Source: a virus
Direction: 5' to 3' (one strand)
Length of the DNA stretch: 36,499 nucleotides
IMG/VR virus record: IMGVR_UViG_3300027985_000465
Location: 1 to 36,499 of that record
Position 1 is the first letter of the stretch. Each line of letters opens with the position of its first letter. Positions 7,755-34,464 of this stretch are shown in pieces. The notes under the pieces are model-generated. The model made no database searches. It had not been told where the DNA came from and saw only the letters and a list, made by a program, of their open reading frames with translations. Position numbers and translations under genes: made by a program.

Positions 7755-10700
7755 ATGACCGATACAGCATCATTACGAATAGCAGTTGAAACTTCGGACG
7801 TTAAAAAAGCAAATGATGAGTTAAATAAGCTCTCTAATACTTCCGATAAAACTGAAAAATCAGTAAATATAACATCAAAATCTTTTCTATTACTTGGCAC
7901 TGCATTAACAGGTTCAGCAGTAGCAGCAGCGGCACTATTAGCCCCATTTATAAGCCTTTCAGATCAATTCACAGGAATACAATCTAAATTAAAACTTGTA
8001 ACTTCTTCCACAAATGAATTAGCAAGCGCGCAATCAGAATTATTTAAAATTGCCCAAACTACAAGACAAGGTTTTGCTGAAACTGTAGATACTTACTCTA
8101 ATTTTGCTTTAGCAATGGGCGAAATGGGTAAAAGTCAAAAAGATATTTTAAGAACAGTTGAGACTATTAATAAAGCTATTGCTATTAGTGGAGGAACAAC
8201 TCAACAGGCAGCCGCTGCCACTACACAGCTAGGTCAGGCTTTTGCATCGGGAACATTGCGAGGGGATGAACTTAACTCTATCCTTGAAAACTCTAAGGGA
8301 TTGGCGCAAGCTATTGCGGACGGAATGGGAGTTCCTATCGGTCAGCTTAGAACGCTAGGGAGCGAGGGTAAGATAACTGCTGAAATTTTAGCTAATGCCC
8401 TAGAAAAATCTGCCAAATCTGTAGATGATAAATTCTCTAAAGTTGGCAAAACAGTAGACCAATCTATGACTATGGCTAAAAACTCATTACTTCTTGCGGT
8501 AGGGGAGATGGATAAAGCCACTGGAATATCAAAAACATTAGCAGAGGCTATAAGCGGGTTAAGTTCTGTTTTTAGTGATGCGGCTATAGCTATTCACAAA
8601 TTTAACATTGAGATAAATAGACTTCAAGACGTTAGAAAAATAAAAACTTTCGATGACGCAAATACAGCCCTAAAACAAATAGATGATGAGATTAAGTCTC
8701 TAACTACATCTATGAATTTGTCAGACAGAGCAAAACGTGCATTAATGGGTGAAGTACAAGTAAGAGCTAAACTTATTCAATTAAGAGCATCGGAAGCAGC
8801 ATTAAACAGAAAAGTAAACTCAATTGCGGAAGATGAATTAAAAATACAAAATCAAAAAGATGAGGCTTATAAAAATAGACCCGCAAAATCTTTAACAAAA
8901 GAGGAAATAGCAGCAGCTAAAAAAGCTGCAAAAGAAGCACAAAAAGCAGAAGAAGAAAAAGCAAAAGCAATTGAAGATATTACAAATGAAGGTTTCGAGT
9001 TTTCAAAGCAAGTATATGAGAATAGAAAGAAATTAGAGGACGATTTATTTCAAGCTACAGCTTCAAACTATGAAAAAGAGATGGGGCTAATAGCTAAAAA
9101 AGTTGAGGCTATCAAGGGTGTAGGTGTTACCTTAGAAGAAACTACACAATACCAATCTATACTAGAAGAAAATTACCTTGAAAGTGTTTATCAAGATTCA
9201 CAACGTATGTTTGATAAGCTCGATGAAGAAATTATAAAAAGTGCAGAAGAATTAGAAAAGTCATTAGAGTTCAAAATAAAAATAGATTTTGATACGGAAG
9301 GTGATTTTAAAGGTGTTTCTAAAGTAGCTAAACAAATTGAGCTATTAGTAGATGAGACAAAACAATACGAAAGCAATAAAAAGAAAGCTGCAAATAATAC
9401 TAAGCTGCTGGCAAAAGTAGAAGAAGATCACACTAAAAATCAAATAGCTGGATATGCAAATATTTCAGGTGCAATGTCTGAAATGTTTAATGAAGGGTCA
9501 AGAGAAGCAGCAGCATTTAAAGCAATTGAAAGTGGATTAGCCGTTGTAGCAGGTGTGAGAGCTATTATGACTGCTGGTACTGGTGATCCATATACTGCTA
9601 TTCCACGTATGGTAGCTATGGCGGCGATGGTAGCTTCTACACTTCAAAGTGTTGGAATAGCATTTAGTGGTAATGGTAATGTCACTACAACATCAGATGC
9701 TTTTTCATCTATGCAAGCCAATACAGGCACTGGAAGCATTTTAGGAGATACTACAGCTCAGAGCAAATCCATATCAAAATCAATGGAAATACTAGGTGAC
9801 CTTGCAAAGCCTGAGTTTAGAATTATGACCGATATGGCTAGATCATTACAATCTATAGATGATAAGATTGGCGGTGTAACAAGCCTATTAATAAGACAAG
9901 GCGGATTTGCATTTGGAGAAGGGTATACTGGCTTTGATACTGGTTTTGCCAATAATATAACATTAGGTAGCGGAGCATTGAGCATACTAAGCCCAATAAC
10001 ATCATTAACAGATAAACTATTATCTAAGATACCTATTCTAAATATATTCTCTGGGCTTGCATCAGGTCTTTTAAATTCCATTTTGGGTGGTTTATTCGGT
10101 CAAACATCAGTATCACAAACTATGACTGATTCGGGTATATTTTTTGCAGATGCACTATTACAAAATGCAATTGATGAGTTCAACGGTTCTGCATACCAAA
10201 CAATAGCAACTACAGTTAAAAAGAAATCATGGTTTAGCAGTTCTTCAAGTACAACAATATCAACTTATTTTTCAGGGTTAGATGACGAGATAAGCAGACA
10301 GTTCTCTCTAGTCCTTGAAAATCTATATCAAACTACACTTTTGGCAGGAGAAGCATTAGATACATCTGCTTCTAGTATTGAATCTGATTTATCTGATTTT
10401 GTTATAAGTATTGGGAAAATATCTCTTAAAGGGAAAACAGGCGATGAAATACAAGAGACTATATCGTCAATTTTTGGAAAAATAAGCGATGATATCGCAA
10501 AAGACGTATTCCCATTATTAACAGACTTCCAAAAAGTAGGTGAGGGCTTATTTGAAACAATGACCCGTGTAGCTTCTGGAATGGAAGAAGCTGAATACTA
10601 TATTAATCGACTAGGTAAGCAATTTAATGATATTGTATATACTGATCTTTTAAATAAACAAGGCGATGTAGCACTAGAAGCATTACGCCAGTCTATCATT

Positions 10701-24433: not shown

Positions 24434-24558
24434 CTATTCCCCTTTGTGTTAAATTCACATAAAAACCATACATCACGGTAGCTACCCGCCGACTTATACC
24501 CTCCAGATATAAAACACCCTGTATGGCTTGTATGTAAATTTAAATGGAGCCGGCCCAT
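24430..24558 (-). CDS. 42-residue ORF at the head of the minus-strand operon
   Basis: It reads MGRLHLNLHTSHTGCFISGG, then YKSAGSYRDVWFLCEFNTKG. The composition (His, Gly, Tyr, Trp, Cys) looks protein-like and the stop overlaps the next start (ATGA). The ribosome binding site is weak (AAGAG at a long distance). The GxKSAG segment is reminiscent of small prophage Ash-like proteins, but I cannot confirm it. A 6-bp GC hairpin (24547-24552 with 24568-24573) overlaps its start. Confidence 0.45.
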   Translation of the reverse strand: MGRLHLNLHTSHTGCFISGGYKSAGSYRDVWFLCEFNTKGNR

Positions 24559-24617
24559 TAAGGCTATCGGCTCTTATCCCACGATTTCTTTTATTTGTTT
24601 TGAACCGGCATCATTTC

Positions 24618-24647
24618 TTATAGTTTTGTTGCAGATATTTTCTTCAT
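24618..24647 (-). other. Nine-residue leader ORF with strong ribosome binding site
   Basis: AAAGGAG lies 6 nt before an ATG that opens a 9-codon ORF (MKKISATKL) in the minus-strand leader. The -1 frame then stays open with a protein-like reading (NKTIRNDAGSKQIKEIVG) to about 24575. This may be a leader peptide, or the remains of a small frame-shifted gene. Low certainty. Confidence 0.3.
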
Positions 24648-24680
24648 TTAAAACTCCTTTGTTTTATTTTAAAAGCTCTG

Positions 24681-24751
24681 TAAAGCATATTTCACCCTGC
24701 GTGTCGTGACGGGTTTTATGAACGGTTTAACGACTCTTTAAATATGCTTTA
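24681..24751 (-). promoter_or_regulatory. Long stem-loop between tRNA and early operon
   Basis: TAAAGCATATTT (24681-24692) and AAATATGCTTTA (24740-24751) form a perfect 12-bp inverted repeat enclosing 47 nt. Inside, GTCGT/ACGAC (24703-24707 with 24730-24734) and ACCC/GGGT (24694-24697 with 24711-24714) are alternative pairings. It would be in the minus-strand transcript directly after the tRNA. Possible roles are tRNA 3' processing, attenuation or a stable RNA. Confidence 0.5.
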
Positions 24752-24761
24752 TAAAGATATA

Positions 24762-24840
24762 TGGTGCCTCCAGCAGGATTTGAACCTGCAACCTATAGGC
24801 TAGCAAAGTCCTATTGTTCTATCCATTGAACTATGGCGGC
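24762..24840 (-). tRNA. tRNA-like gene with enlarged anticodon loop (Gln-like, isotype uncertain)
   Basis: The cloverleaf is recognisable. It has a 7-bp acceptor with one G-A mismatch, a D arm (GTTC/GAAC), an anticodon stem ATAGG/CCTAT, a 5-nt variable loop, a T arm (GCAGG-TTCAAAT-CCTGC) and an encoded CCA. The anticodon loop is ACTTTGCTAG, 10 nt instead of 7. After C-T the triplet is TTG (Gln); shifting by one gives TGC (Ala). It is three bases longer than a standard tRNA. It may be degraded, or adapted to non-standard decoding. It is co-oriented with the tRNA-Ser just upstream. Confidence 0.7.
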
Positions 24841-24843
24841 ATT

Positions 24844-24928
24844 TGGCGGGTAGTATAGGACTCGAACCTATAAGAGTTTTACCTCGACAGGTTAGCAACC
24901 TGCTTCATTGCCGTTATGATAACTACCC
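24844..24928 (-). tRNA. tRNA-Ser (anticodon GCT)
   Basis: An 85-nt tRNA with a perfect 7-bp acceptor (GGGTAGT/ACTACCC), a D arm TCAT/ATGA, an anticodon stem GCAGG/CCTGT with loop TTGCTAA giving anticodon GCT, and a long variable arm (GAG/CTC) typical of tRNA-Ser. The T arm is ATAGG-TTCGAGT-CCTAT, and the CCA is encoded. It would read AGC and AGT codons. Confidence 0.92.
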
Positions 24929-31214: not shown

Positions 31215-31543
31215 AATCAACGACTAAATACAGAAACAAAAAAACAAACGGATATGATAGTAAAAAAGAGGCTAAACGTGCAGTAGAGTTAAAACTACTT
31301 GAACGTGCAGGGCATATCTCAGAGTTAAAAGAACAAGTAACTATACTACTGCAAGAGAAGTTTAGACATAACGGTAAGTGGGAATGTTCCATAACTTATA
31401 TAGCTGATTTCGTTTATATGAAAGACGGGGTAAAGATTGTGGAGGATGTAAAGTCTCCAATCACACGCAAGATACAAACATATAGAATTAAAAGAAAACT
31501 ATTGCTATTTAAATATCCTGATATTGCTTTTTTAGAAACATAA
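31211..31543 (+). CDS. DUF1064 family protein (putative nuclease)
   Basis: A 110-residue protein: KYRNKKTNGYDSKKEAKRAV, later ITYIADFVYMKDGVKIVEDV, then KSPITRKIQTYRIKRKLLLF. This is the DUF1064 pattern, with E/D-x-K residues of a restriction endonuclease-like core (D of IADF, E-D-V-K). ATG 31211 overlaps the previous stop (ATGA) and was preferred over the in-frame GTG at 31196. Likely acts with the HNH protein in DNA processing. Confidence 0.8.
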   Translation: MKSTTKYRNKKTNGYDSKKEAKRAVELKLLERAGHISELKEQVTILLQEKFRHNGKWECSITYIADFVYMKDGVKIVEDVKSPITRKIQTYRIKRKLLLFKYPDIAFLET

Positions 31544-31552
31544 TGCTATAAT
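31544..31552 (+). promoter_or_regulatory. Extended -10 promoter of the structured RNA
   Basis: TGCTATAAT starts just after the stop codon of the DUF1064 gene. Transcription would begin near 31559-31561, exactly at the start of the first predicted RNA arm (31562). No strong -35 element is visible. Confidence 0.68.
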
Positions 31553-31559
31553 ACACTTA

Positions 31560-31975
31560 CAAACCTATCACGCCTATACACAAAGCGCACCCAGATAGGT
31601 TACTTCGACAACCACCTCATAGTGAAGGTGCGTCGTGTTATTTGAATAGCTTTTTATCGAGTACACGTCGGAGCAAACGTCCGTAAATAAATACCGTATG
31701 AATATCGGGATGTATGATCTGCCTTTATGGTATCCGATACGGTCAAGGTGTACTCGACCATAGAGCTTTTAATAGTGGTACATAGTGGCGGAATATAGAC
31801 GCTCGCTGAAGGATGCGTTAGGGCAACCACACGATGTAAAACATAAGTTCATAGGTGAAAGTCCTATGGCTATGTATCACTACAAATAGCTTAGTAGTAT
31901 GAAATAGATGCAACGATCAGGAAAGCGACTTCATCCGCACCTCGCCTGAGACTTGCATCGACTTGATACTATAAA
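31560..31975 (+). ncRNA. Candidate large structured RNA with five arms, about 415 nt
   Basis: No ORF, but dense pairing. Arm 1: 31562-31569 with 31594-31601. Arm 2: 31606-31609 and 31613-31617 with 31626-31630 and 31632-31635. Arm 3: TCGAGTACAC 31657-31666 with 31748-31757, enclosing hairpins 31669-31672/31680-31683 and 31693-31699/31737-31743. Arm 4: 31764-31770 with 31884-31891 and 31773-31785 with 31870-31882 (20 bp with one wobble and small bulges), enclosing 31850-31855/31863-31868. Arm 5: 31895-31900/31966-31971, 31907-31913/31953-31959, 31917-31921/31945-31949. It has its own promoter; no U-tract follows arm 5. It could be an independent RNA or a long leader of the 31985 gene. Confidence 0.78.
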
Positions 31976-31984
31976 GAGGGATAG

Positions 31985-32236
31985 ATGAAAAACTACGAAA
32001 TGCTGCAATACAAAAAACAAAAAAAGTACATTAAGAAGTTAAAAAAAGAAAATGAACTTCTACAATTAAAGCTAAATGGATCAAATGCAACAGTAGCAAA
32101 ACAGATAGATTATATTGCTATACTTAACAAACAGTTAGAACAACAAGACCTATATATAAACCGATATATGGGAGATATTAAAGTTTTAAAACGAATGTAT
32201 CGTGATGATTTGATTAATAGCTTTAAATATGAGTAG
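31985..32236 (+). CDS. Small coiled-coil protein
   Basis: An 83-residue protein (KNYEMLQYKKQKKYIKKLKK) that is almost entirely a basic coiled coil. GAGGG lies 6 nt before the ATG and just after the last arm of the structured RNA. It may bind nucleic acid or the RNA itself, but this is speculative. Confidence 0.6.
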   Translation: MKNYEMLQYKKQKKYIKKLKKENELLQLKLNGSNATVAKQIDYIAILNKQLEQQDLYINRYMGDIKVLKRMYRDDLINSFKYE

Positions 32237-32632: not shown

Positions 32633-32655
32633 TGAATGATGAGATTAACTACTAA
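32632..32655 (+). other. Seven-codon mini-cistron linking two genes
   Basis: ATG-7 codons-TAA (MNDEINY). Its ATG overlaps the upstream stop (TAATG) and its stop overlaps the small terminase ATG (TAATG). This could pass re-initiating ribosomes from one gene to the next. Confidence 0.4.
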
Positions 32656-33149
32656 TGGCTTATAGTGCTGAGCAATGGGATCGTACAAAAGCATTATTTG
32701 AGAGTGGGCAATACTCACTATCTGAAATACAAGAAAAGACAGGTATTAGCAAAAGCAAGATAAGCGAGAAGTCAAAAAAGGAACAATGGGAACGGGGAAG
32801 GAACGCTGATTATATCGAAGCTCGTAAAACTTTAGCGGTCAAAAAGGGAACGGAAAAGGGAACGACTATACAAGTTCTTGATGATATTGCAGATGAACAG
32901 ATACGTAGAGAAAGATTAGTATTTGGGATACAAGAAAAAGCATTAGCAAAAGCAGATACCATGCTAGACCAAATAGATACACCAGCAGACCTTAAAACAA
33001 TTATTGACGCAGTAGATAGAGCCTCTATAACTCTTAAAGTATCTGAACGTCATGCTCCAAAAGTTGAGGTAAATAATACTAATGCTCAACAGAACAATAC
33101 AGAGATAAAAAGGGTAACTATTGCAAGACGCTCTGATAGAGTTGAGTGA
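32655..33149 (+). CDS. Terminase small subunit
   Basis: A 164-residue protein. The N-terminus AYSAEQWDRTKALFESGQYS followed by LSEIQEKTGISKSKISEKS is the helix-turn-helix of small terminases of the phage_terminase_2-like type. A central helical oligomerisation region and a basic end (IKRVTIARRSDR) follow. It recognises the packaging site and regulates the large subunit. Overlaps the large subunit start by 29 nt. Confidence 0.85.
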   Translation: MAYSAEQWDRTKALFESGQYSLSEIQEKTGISKSKISEKSKKEQWERGRNADYIEARKTLAVKKGTEKGTTIQVLDDIADEQIRRERLVFGIQEKALAKADTMLDQIDTPADLKTIIDAVDRASITLKVSERHAPKVEVNNTNAQQNNTEIKRVTIARRSDRVE

Positions 33150-34464
33150 CCCTCAATATGATTTTTTAACATCAACATTTAAACATACTGGATTCGTTGC
33201 TGGATTCGGTAGCGGTAAGTCTTTTATTGGTACTCTTAAATCATTAACTAAGATTTTAGATGGTGTACCAAAGACAGCTTATTATCTTCCCACATACGGA
33301 GATATAAGAGATATTGCTTTCGATGGGTTTCCTATTGTTGCAGAAATGCTAGGGTATCAATATAAACTAAATAAGACAGATAAAGAGTTTATTTTGCTTG
33401 ATGGTAAATATGAAATAGGAAAAACAATATTCCGAAATATGTCTGAGCCTGAAAGTATTGTTGGTTATCAGGTAGGATATGCGCTTATAGATGAAACAGA
33501 CATCCTCAAAGAGGAGATAATGGATAAAGCCTATAAGAAGATTCTAGGTCGTAACCGTTTAATTATGCAAGTTAATGATGATGAGCTATTACATGAATTT
33601 ATTAATAATGGGATTCCTCCACTTGGAACTTACTTTCACAAAGAGAAAAAAGAACTTTGCTATATTAACTGCATCGATGTTGCAGGAACACCTGAAGGTT
33701 ATAAGTGGTTTTATAAACGATTTAAAAAACGATTTAATAGTCAATCAGATTTATTAGTAACCGCATCAACATACTCAAACCTACATAATCTTCCTGACGA
33801 TTTTATTGATACACTTAGAGCTCAATATACTGAAGAAATGTTTGACGCTTATGTAAATGGAAAATTTGTAAACCTTACAAGTGGAACAGTTTATAAGTAT
33901 TTCAATCGCAAAGAGCATCATAGCGATGAACAAGTGCAAGACAATGAAACTATCATAATAGGTCAAGATTTTAATATAGGCGCTTGTGTATCAATTGTTT
34001 ACGTATGGAGAGGAAAAGCGCTTGTGGCAGTGAATGAGTTTATAAGCTATGATACAAAGGCAATAATAGCAAATTTAAATAGCAAGTACCCAAATAGATC
34101 GATAGAGATTTATCCTGATGCAAGCGGTGATAATAGAAAAACAAACGCACAAGAAACAGATATCCAAATGCTTAGAAATTCTGGGTTTATGGTTTATAAC
34201 AATGCTTCAAATCCATCCGTAATAGATAGGGTAAATATTCTTAATAATGCTTTTGAGAAGAAAACAGTATTAGTTAATACAAATCTATGCCCTAGATATA
34301 CAGAAGCATTAGAGCAGCAAGCATGGGATTCAAAAACTGGTGCTCCTGAAAAAGGTAACTCACATCCCGAACCATCAGATTTTAATGATGCTGGTGGATA
34401 TCCTGTTGCATATATTTTCCCTATCACTACACCATTCAATAGAGTAAAAATGATAGGTATGTAA
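33121..34464 (+). CDS. Terminase large subunit
   Basis: A 447-residue packaging motor. Walker A-like GFGSGKS at 28-34, Walker B ALIDETD at 121-127, and an RNase H-like nuclease with Asp283 (GQDFN), Asp333/Asp337 (YPDASGDNR) and Asp420/Asp423 (SDFNDA). It cuts concatemers and pumps DNA into the procapsid. The start appears to be TTG 33121 with AGGG upstream; TTG 33142 is an alternative. The long overlap with the small subunit suggests translational coupling. Confidence 0.92.
   Translation: MQDALIELSDPQYDFLTSTFKHTGFVAGFGSGKSFIGTLKSLTKILDGVPKTAYYLPTYGDIRDIAFDGFPIVAEMLGYQYKLNKTDKEFILLDGKYEIGKTIFRNMSEPESIVGYQVGYALIDETDILKEEIMDKAYKKILGRNRLIMQVNDDELLHEFINNGIPPLGTYFHKEKKELCYINCIDVAGTPEGYKWFYKRFKKRFNSQSDLLVTASTYSNLHNLPDDFIDTLRAQYTEEMFDAYVNGKFVNLTSGTVYKYFNRKEHHSDEQVQDNETIIIGQDFNIGACVSIVYVWRGKALVAVNEFISYDTKAIIANLNSKYPNRSIEIYPDASGDNRKTNAQETDIQMLRNSGFMVYNNASNPSVIDRVNILNNAFEKKTVLVNTNLCPRYTEALEQQAWDSKTGAPEKGNSHPEPSDFNDAGGYPVAYIFPITTPFNRVKMIGM

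Follow-up and report, generated by a model that had tools for sequence, protein, structure and literature searches.

The 36,499-nt virus record IMGVR_UViG_3300027985_000465, here called the window (36.5 kb), carries a stretch devoid of recognizable genes between a DUF1064/resolvase-like gene and the packaging genes (Table 1). The preliminary description of this locus had noted about 415 nt without a gene. This was confirmed, with no ORF of 60 or more amino acids in the segment 31560-31975 (plus strand, 416 nt) or elsewhere between 31543 and 31985. We suspect that the host belongs to the Campylobacterota, judging from Campylobacter-like prophage relatives and a Sulfurimonas phage.

The plus strand of the segment had a predicted folding energy of -126.1 kcal/mol, compared with -100.8 +/- 5.5 kcal/mol for dinucleotide shuffles (z = -4.57). 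None of 100 shuffles folded as well, confirming the elaborate RNA fold that had been proposed. The minus strand was less extreme (z = -3.0), and in 150-nt tiles the signal peaked at 31750-31999 (z about -3.1 to -3.5). The predicted layout begins with arms 1 and 2; arms 3 and 4 follow inside a domain that an 8-bp helix closes, and arm 5 comes last. Stems of 8 bp and 10 bp, as in the preliminary description, were found in arms 1 and 3, respectively, the one in arm 3 being perfect. Its extended -10 promoter is present in the sequence as described and is plausible, with a predicted transcription start at about 31559, just 5' of arm 1. The -10 element TGNTATAAT alone is not above chance, with 6 occurrences in the window versus 4.0 expected. 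The RNA and the ORF that follows it (31985) are not separated by a terminator. The RNA may therefore double as a leader for the packaging transcript, or form part of a late mRNA.

Table 1. Features in and around the RNA segment, in window coordinates.
Feature	Position	Strand	Description	Basis
DUF1064/resolvase-like gene	ends 31543		5' neighbor of the RNA segment	
Promoter-like site	31524..31552	+	TTGCTT (31524-31529), 17 nt, extended -10 TGCTATAAT (31544-31552)	sequence
Arm 1, abiF-type antitoxin hairpin	31562..31601	+	AACCTATC-A-CGC-loop-GCG-CACCCA-GATAGGTT; 8 bp, 31562-31569/31594-31601	
Arm 2, small hairpin	31606..31635	+	CGAC..GTCG around CACCT..AGGTG	predicted fold only
Closing helix, 8 bp	31637..31644 / 31883..31890	+	makes a single multibranch domain of arms 3 and 4	pair probability 0.94-0.97
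Arm 3, long arm	31648..31767	+	perfect 10-bp stem TCGAGTACAC/GTGTACTCGA, 31657-31666/31748-31757	pair probability 0.96-1.0
Arm 4, tRNA-like element	31773..31882	+	acceptor-like stem, D-arm-like core, 46-nt middle, T-arm-like hairpin directly followed by the 3' half of the acceptor-like stem	
Invariant core of arm 4	31785..31802	+	GTGGCGGAATATAGACGC; D-arm like, GCG/CGC, 9-nt loop without GG	
T-arm-like hairpin of arm 4	31849..31869	+	TCATAGG-TGAAAGT-CCTATGG	same place and loop in type-1 relatives
Arm 5, long hairpin	31894..31972	+	7+7+5+3 bp	middle stem pair probability 0.88-1.0
First downstream ORF	31985..32236	+	83 aa, coiled-coil-like, no family	
Terminase small subunit-like protein	32655..33149	+		PHROG matches
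Terminase large subunit	33121..34464	+	1.3 kb after the tRNA-like core	Pfam PF03237 and PHROGs
Portal gene	starts 34519		downstream of the terminase genes	

Homologues of the whole RNA were found neither in isolated phages, nor in relatives of the terminase or of DUF1064, nor beside the next ORF. The sole short match, in L006, lay within a repressor-like gene and was attributed to chance. Covariation among homologues, by which the preliminary description proposed to judge the RNA, was found for the families to which arms 1 and 4 belong, but for arms 2, 3 and 5 no relatives were found, and exact patterns from arms 3 and 5 had no viral match. These three arms are predicted to be stable, without comparative support. 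The tip of arm 5 (5 bp, 3-nt bulge, 3 bp, loop, 6-nt bulge) is proportioned loosely like an abiF hairpin, the conserved letters being absent, and is recorded as a lead only.

A search with the Rfam library (4227 families) gave nothing in the segment that reached a gathering score. Raising the E-value limit to 10 brought up just three families, abiF, pemK and 6A, each scoring under its cut-off, and the pemK and 6A matches were rejected as below noise. GOLLD and ROOL, to which the RNA had been likened, are often phage-borne and found near tRNAs. Together with OLE they are large ornate RNAs, as is the RNA described here, but there was no sequence or structure match, and the phage RNA is smaller and modular. 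The search of the library as a whole gave no covariance match to GOLLD, ROOL, OLE, HEARO or raiA in the segment. The suggested likeness to GOLLD and ROOL was thus not supported, and the RNA segment is a string of separable modules rather than a single giant RNA.

The AbiF system has been proposed as an ancestor of Cas13. In C. difficile, abiF RNA binds and neutralizes the AbiF HEPN toxin, both in cis and in trans (PMC12373285). Arm 1 shares the hairpin layout and the conserved letters of abiF RNAs (RF03085), such as RCd22 of C. difficile. It matched RF03085 with 28.0 bits at 31564-31600 (cut-off 37) in a full-length alignment (1-37), with an E-value of 0.0082 when all of Rfam was run on 701 nt and of 1e-4 when the single family was run on the whole phage. 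Real abiF RNAs from Bacillota genomes share the arrangement stem-A-CGC-CTCTTAACAAT-GCG-nACCAn-stem. Allowing for variants of its own, arm 1 keeps the near-invariant letters CACGCCT.T....C.A.GCG.ACC, and with them the conserved bulge, the inner CGC/GCG helix, CCT.T and C.A in the loop, and ACC in the 3' bulge. In its outer stem, CCTATC/GATAGG replaces CCCACC/GGTGGG and remains fully paired, a compensatory change. The exact loop pattern of arm 1 had no other viral match.

Arm 1 differs from abiF RNAs in being located at the 5' end of a larger RNA, in lacking a U-rich tail and in lacking a loop pair that covaries elsewhere in the family; it has A/A at this position, the sole exception among 29 aligned hairpins. 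The hairpin in L124 also has A/A there. Because of the score below cut-off and the missing loop pair and U tail, we call arm 1 abiF-type and do not file it as RF03085. The phage record had no match to Abi_2 (PF07751). Arm 1 is therefore an abiF-type hairpin without an AbiF gene.

When viral contigs were scanned with the pattern CACGCCTNTNNNCNANGCGNACC, at least 119 stretches matched. A continuous outer stem of 6 bp or more was present in 69 of the 80 viral stretches examined. Among 29 distinct abiF-type hairpins, the stem and one loop pair covaried (0.485 versus 0.142 for shuffled alignments, with 0 of 500 as high). The loop pair (alignment columns 17 and 21; C-G, U-A, A-U) is absent from the Rfam consensus structure. 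Abi_2 was encoded in 3 of 50 viral records carrying an abiF-type hairpin; the 47 records without it give an upper limit for the number of orphans, because many viral records are fragments. In bacterial genomes with abiF RNA, an Abi_2 gene started 90-140 nt downstream in 9 of 21 cases. Same-strand tRNA genes were present in 20 of 80 flanks of the viral hairpins. A U-rich tail followed 43 of 51 distinct viral abiF-type hairpins (L076-L155), as if they also ended transcripts. A terminator role for the abiF hairpin was rejected, since the 17 invariant letters are not needed for a terminator and arm 1 has no U tail.

Carriers among isolated phages include S-CREM1, Aeromonas phage PZL-Ah8, Salicola phage CGphi29 and Mycobacterium phage Thibault. 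In the T7-like PZL-Ah8, the hairpin lies between head genes and has a compensated inner helix (TGC/GCA), and in Thibault it is near tRNA genes. In CGphi29 the terminase genes are immediately preceded by 0.8 kb that lack annotated genes (L304, 1644-2450), and this stretch holds the orphan abiF-type hairpin together with several other hairpins. Caulobacter phage RW has abiF-like letters but no good stem and was not counted. The hairpin of S-CREM1 is an orphan inside an ncRNA/tRNA cluster. The portion of PMC9964418 that deals with this abiF sRNA gives a score of 51.6 bits; within that portion, neither a composite RNA nor a decoy is proposed. In S-CREM1 (9745-10643, L303), tRNA genes alternate with the RNAs manA, wcaG and abiF, an arrangement which raises the possibility that other cyanophage "cis-regulatory" RNAs may also be trans-acting.

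Arm 4 contains what the preliminary description had taken for a 20-bp composite stem with a wobble. It is best read as a 14-bp acceptor-like stem with wobbles (31773-31786/31869-31882) and a 6-bp T-arm-like stem stacked on it. As the arm reads like an altered tRNA-Leu, its core GTGGCGGAANATAGACGC was used as a search pattern. The core was found in 94 stretches in viral contigs, in none of 398 Pseudomonadota genomes and in 1 of 398 Bacillota genomes. It is carried by 85 distinct elements, including that of the window, and the full plan was found by script in 63 of them. This plan comprises an acceptor-like stem of any sequence, the invariant D-arm core with a 9-nt loop, a middle part ranging from about 20 to 165 nt in length, and a T-arm-like hairpin with the 3' strand of the acceptor immediately behind it. 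The T stem is 7 bp long in type 1, with a TGNNAGT loop, and 5 bp long in type 2, with a TATCRAAT loop; type 3 has a near-canonical T loop.

In 32 type-1 sequences, 94.9% of the cells were paired, compared with 67% after shuffling, and 173 double changes were counted versus 52; these sequences were chosen for pairing, which raises the paired percentage, but the choice does not explain the variety of the paired letters. Covariation in their acceptor and T stems was 0.733 versus 0.186 for shuffled alignments, with 0 of 500 as high, and slid controls did not exceed 0.17. A covariance model built from 14 relatives, with the window left out, gave a single match in the window, arm 4 (31777-31878, 66.6 bits, E = 1.3e-17); the core was the search seed, so its match is not independent, while the match of the acceptor and the T-arm is. 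Arm 4 has its acceptor stem right before the core and right after the hairpin with the T-G-N-N-A-G-T loop, and its T-arm-like hairpin falls within 25 nt that are identical to L215. Arm 4 is one member of a tRNA-like family with covarying stems, found repeatedly across many viruses.

No Rfam family covers these tRNA-like elements. Identity with tRNA or tmRNA was rejected for arm 4, which had no ARAGORN or Rfam tRNA match, no anticodon arm and no CCA. YrlA and other bacterial Y RNAs resemble arm 4 in carrying a tRNA-like module in a non-tRNA, but YrlA/Y RNA (RF02553) was likewise rejected, with no match in the window and scores no higher than 18 bits in relatives, against a cut-off of 69. A Ro60 gene was present in 1 of 50 records tested for this YrlA partner. 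The best non-family match of the covariance model, in 630 kb of abiF-carrying and related loci, was a phage tRNA-Leu (18.9 bits). The tRNA-Leu D-arm GTGGCGGAATTGGTAGACGC nearly equals the family core. Compared with tRNA-Leu, the family has lost the GG of the D loop and the anticodon arm, has a TGNNAGT T loop, accepts any acceptor sequence and usually lacks CCA. Intermediates with canonical or near-canonical D and T loops and no normal anticodon arm were found (L255 3-110, L264 3994-4089, L224 9743-9839). Together with the tRNA-Leu match, these sequences make descent of the family from tRNA-Leu likely.

The preliminary description had drawn attention to the location ahead of the terminase, and this proved useful: the tRNA-like family tends to be located 0.8-3.2 kb upstream of the terminase on the same strand. 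Ten of 20 nearby large proteins tested were terminase large subunits. A terminase was recognized in 18 loci, downstream and on the same strand in 16 and upstream in 2, and 15 of those 16 terminases were 0.85-3.2 kb from the element (1.3 kb in the window). Other relatives precede genes of replication, nucleotide or tail function, several of them SbcC-like, DnaD-like, thymidylate synthase and tail fibre assembly genes. Same-strand tRNA genes were present in 14 of 85 flanks, and in one bacterial genome the element is immediately before tRNA-Asn. As many kinds of insertion occupy pre-terminase gaps in phages, position alone is no proof of a role in packaging. The abiF hairpin and the tRNA-like element occurred together only in the window, and the element was absent from the abiF loci searched.

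Starting from this architecture, which the comparisons establish, we infer a function, and give about an even chance to the reading that the phage makes a modular noncoding RNA, acting in trans on RNA-binding defense proteins of the host. The abiF-type hairpin is under selection in phages without AbiF, and a decoy or a substitute antitoxin would be the simplest explanation. Transcribed from its own promoter, the RNA would offer its first hairpin to host AbiF-type HEPN RNases in place of the host antitoxin RNA, and the bound RNases would stay off while infection disturbs host RNA synthesis. The constant part of arm 4 is the pair of elbow-forming loops, while acceptor and middle are free, which suggests either that some factor recognizes the elbow or that the elbow has been changed to evade tRNA enzymes. 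The arm, without anticodon arm and CCA, may thus present a decoy elbow to a tRNA-recognizing host factor. The multibranch core would protect and display the modules. Phage phiTE escapes ToxIN, and thereby defeats abortive infection, by expressing a pseudo-ToxI RNA (PMC3475682). Pseudo-ToxI, like arm 1 as proposed here, is a phage-encoded mimic of an RNA antitoxin of the host, but it concerns another toxin family and another fold, and its function rests on experiment, whereas that of arm 1 is inferred.

The main rival is that the RNA is a cis-acting leader of the packaging operon. This would account for the same-strand packaging genes that follow without an intervening terminator and for the place of the tRNA-like element upstream of the terminase in 16 of 18 loci, and recognition by RNA polymerase or RNase P would fit well with a core that is invariant and stems that covary freely. 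A leader, however, has no need of the abiF letters, several relatives precede non-packaging genes or are located near tRNA genes, and the element is 1-3 kb from the terminase, with other genes intervening. We consider this explanation unlikely, though worth serious weight. The size, elaborate fold and pre-terminase place of the RNA would also fit a packaging RNA or a multimeric structural RNA of the GOLLD/ROOL or phi29 pRNA kind. Yet no large-RNA family of Rfam matched, the arms are modules that can stand apart and are found singly in other phages, and the tRNA-like family is found beside several unrelated terminase families as well as non-packaging genes, making this a very remote prospect.

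The modules might, finally, be relics: a decayed tRNA/ncRNA island with an antitoxin hairpin left after loss of AbiF, or an RNA retained solely to counter addiction to an AbiF system of the host. The tRNA-like family does grade into tRNA-Leu-like forms, and many bacterial abiF RNAs accompany Abi_2 genes. Orphans outnumber complete systems among viral records, however, and the 17-letter core without variation, the strong covariation and the stems that remain intact in unrelated viruses show selection, so that a relic appears improbable. Whatever weight the decoy and the leader do not take up is shared among relic, packaging and readings not listed here. Among the three options of the preliminary description, host interaction is best supported; no evidence was found for multimers or a packaging function.

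For an orphan abiF RNA in a phage, S-CREM1 is the one described precedent, given without a mechanism in the relevant portion of its report (PMC9964418). No description of the tRNA-like family was found in Rfam or in the open-access papers searched, although it may have been described elsewhere. The composite of abiF-type hairpin and tRNA-like element is new. If the trans-acting decoy is correct, the AbiF hairpin is widely held by phages without the toxin, making RNA mimicry of AbiF-type defense testable in isolates such as PZL-Ah8 and CGphi29, and a strongly covarying tRNA-like family, absent from Rfam and nearly absent from the sampled bacteria, recurs in phages with a tendency to precede the terminase gene. 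Tentatively, phages may carry a general class of modular RNA decoys in which orphan abiF-type hairpins and a virus-specific, tRNA-Leu-derived element with a modified elbow are mixed and matched, in this phage within a single transcript. Each module would titrate a different RNA-binding defense protein, with the tRNA-like element as a new viral RNA family.

Elsewhere in the window, on the minus strand, a tRNA gene (24762-24840) with an oversized anticodon loop (ACTTTGCTAG) could not be assigned by ARAGORN; it adjoins a normal tRNA-Ser(GCT) at 24844-24928. Downstream of these tRNAs, a second stretch without a clear gene (24440-24757, minus strand; z = -2.5, no Rfam match) contains a long hairpin, TAAATTTACATACAAGCCATAC / GTATGG..ATGTGAATTTA.
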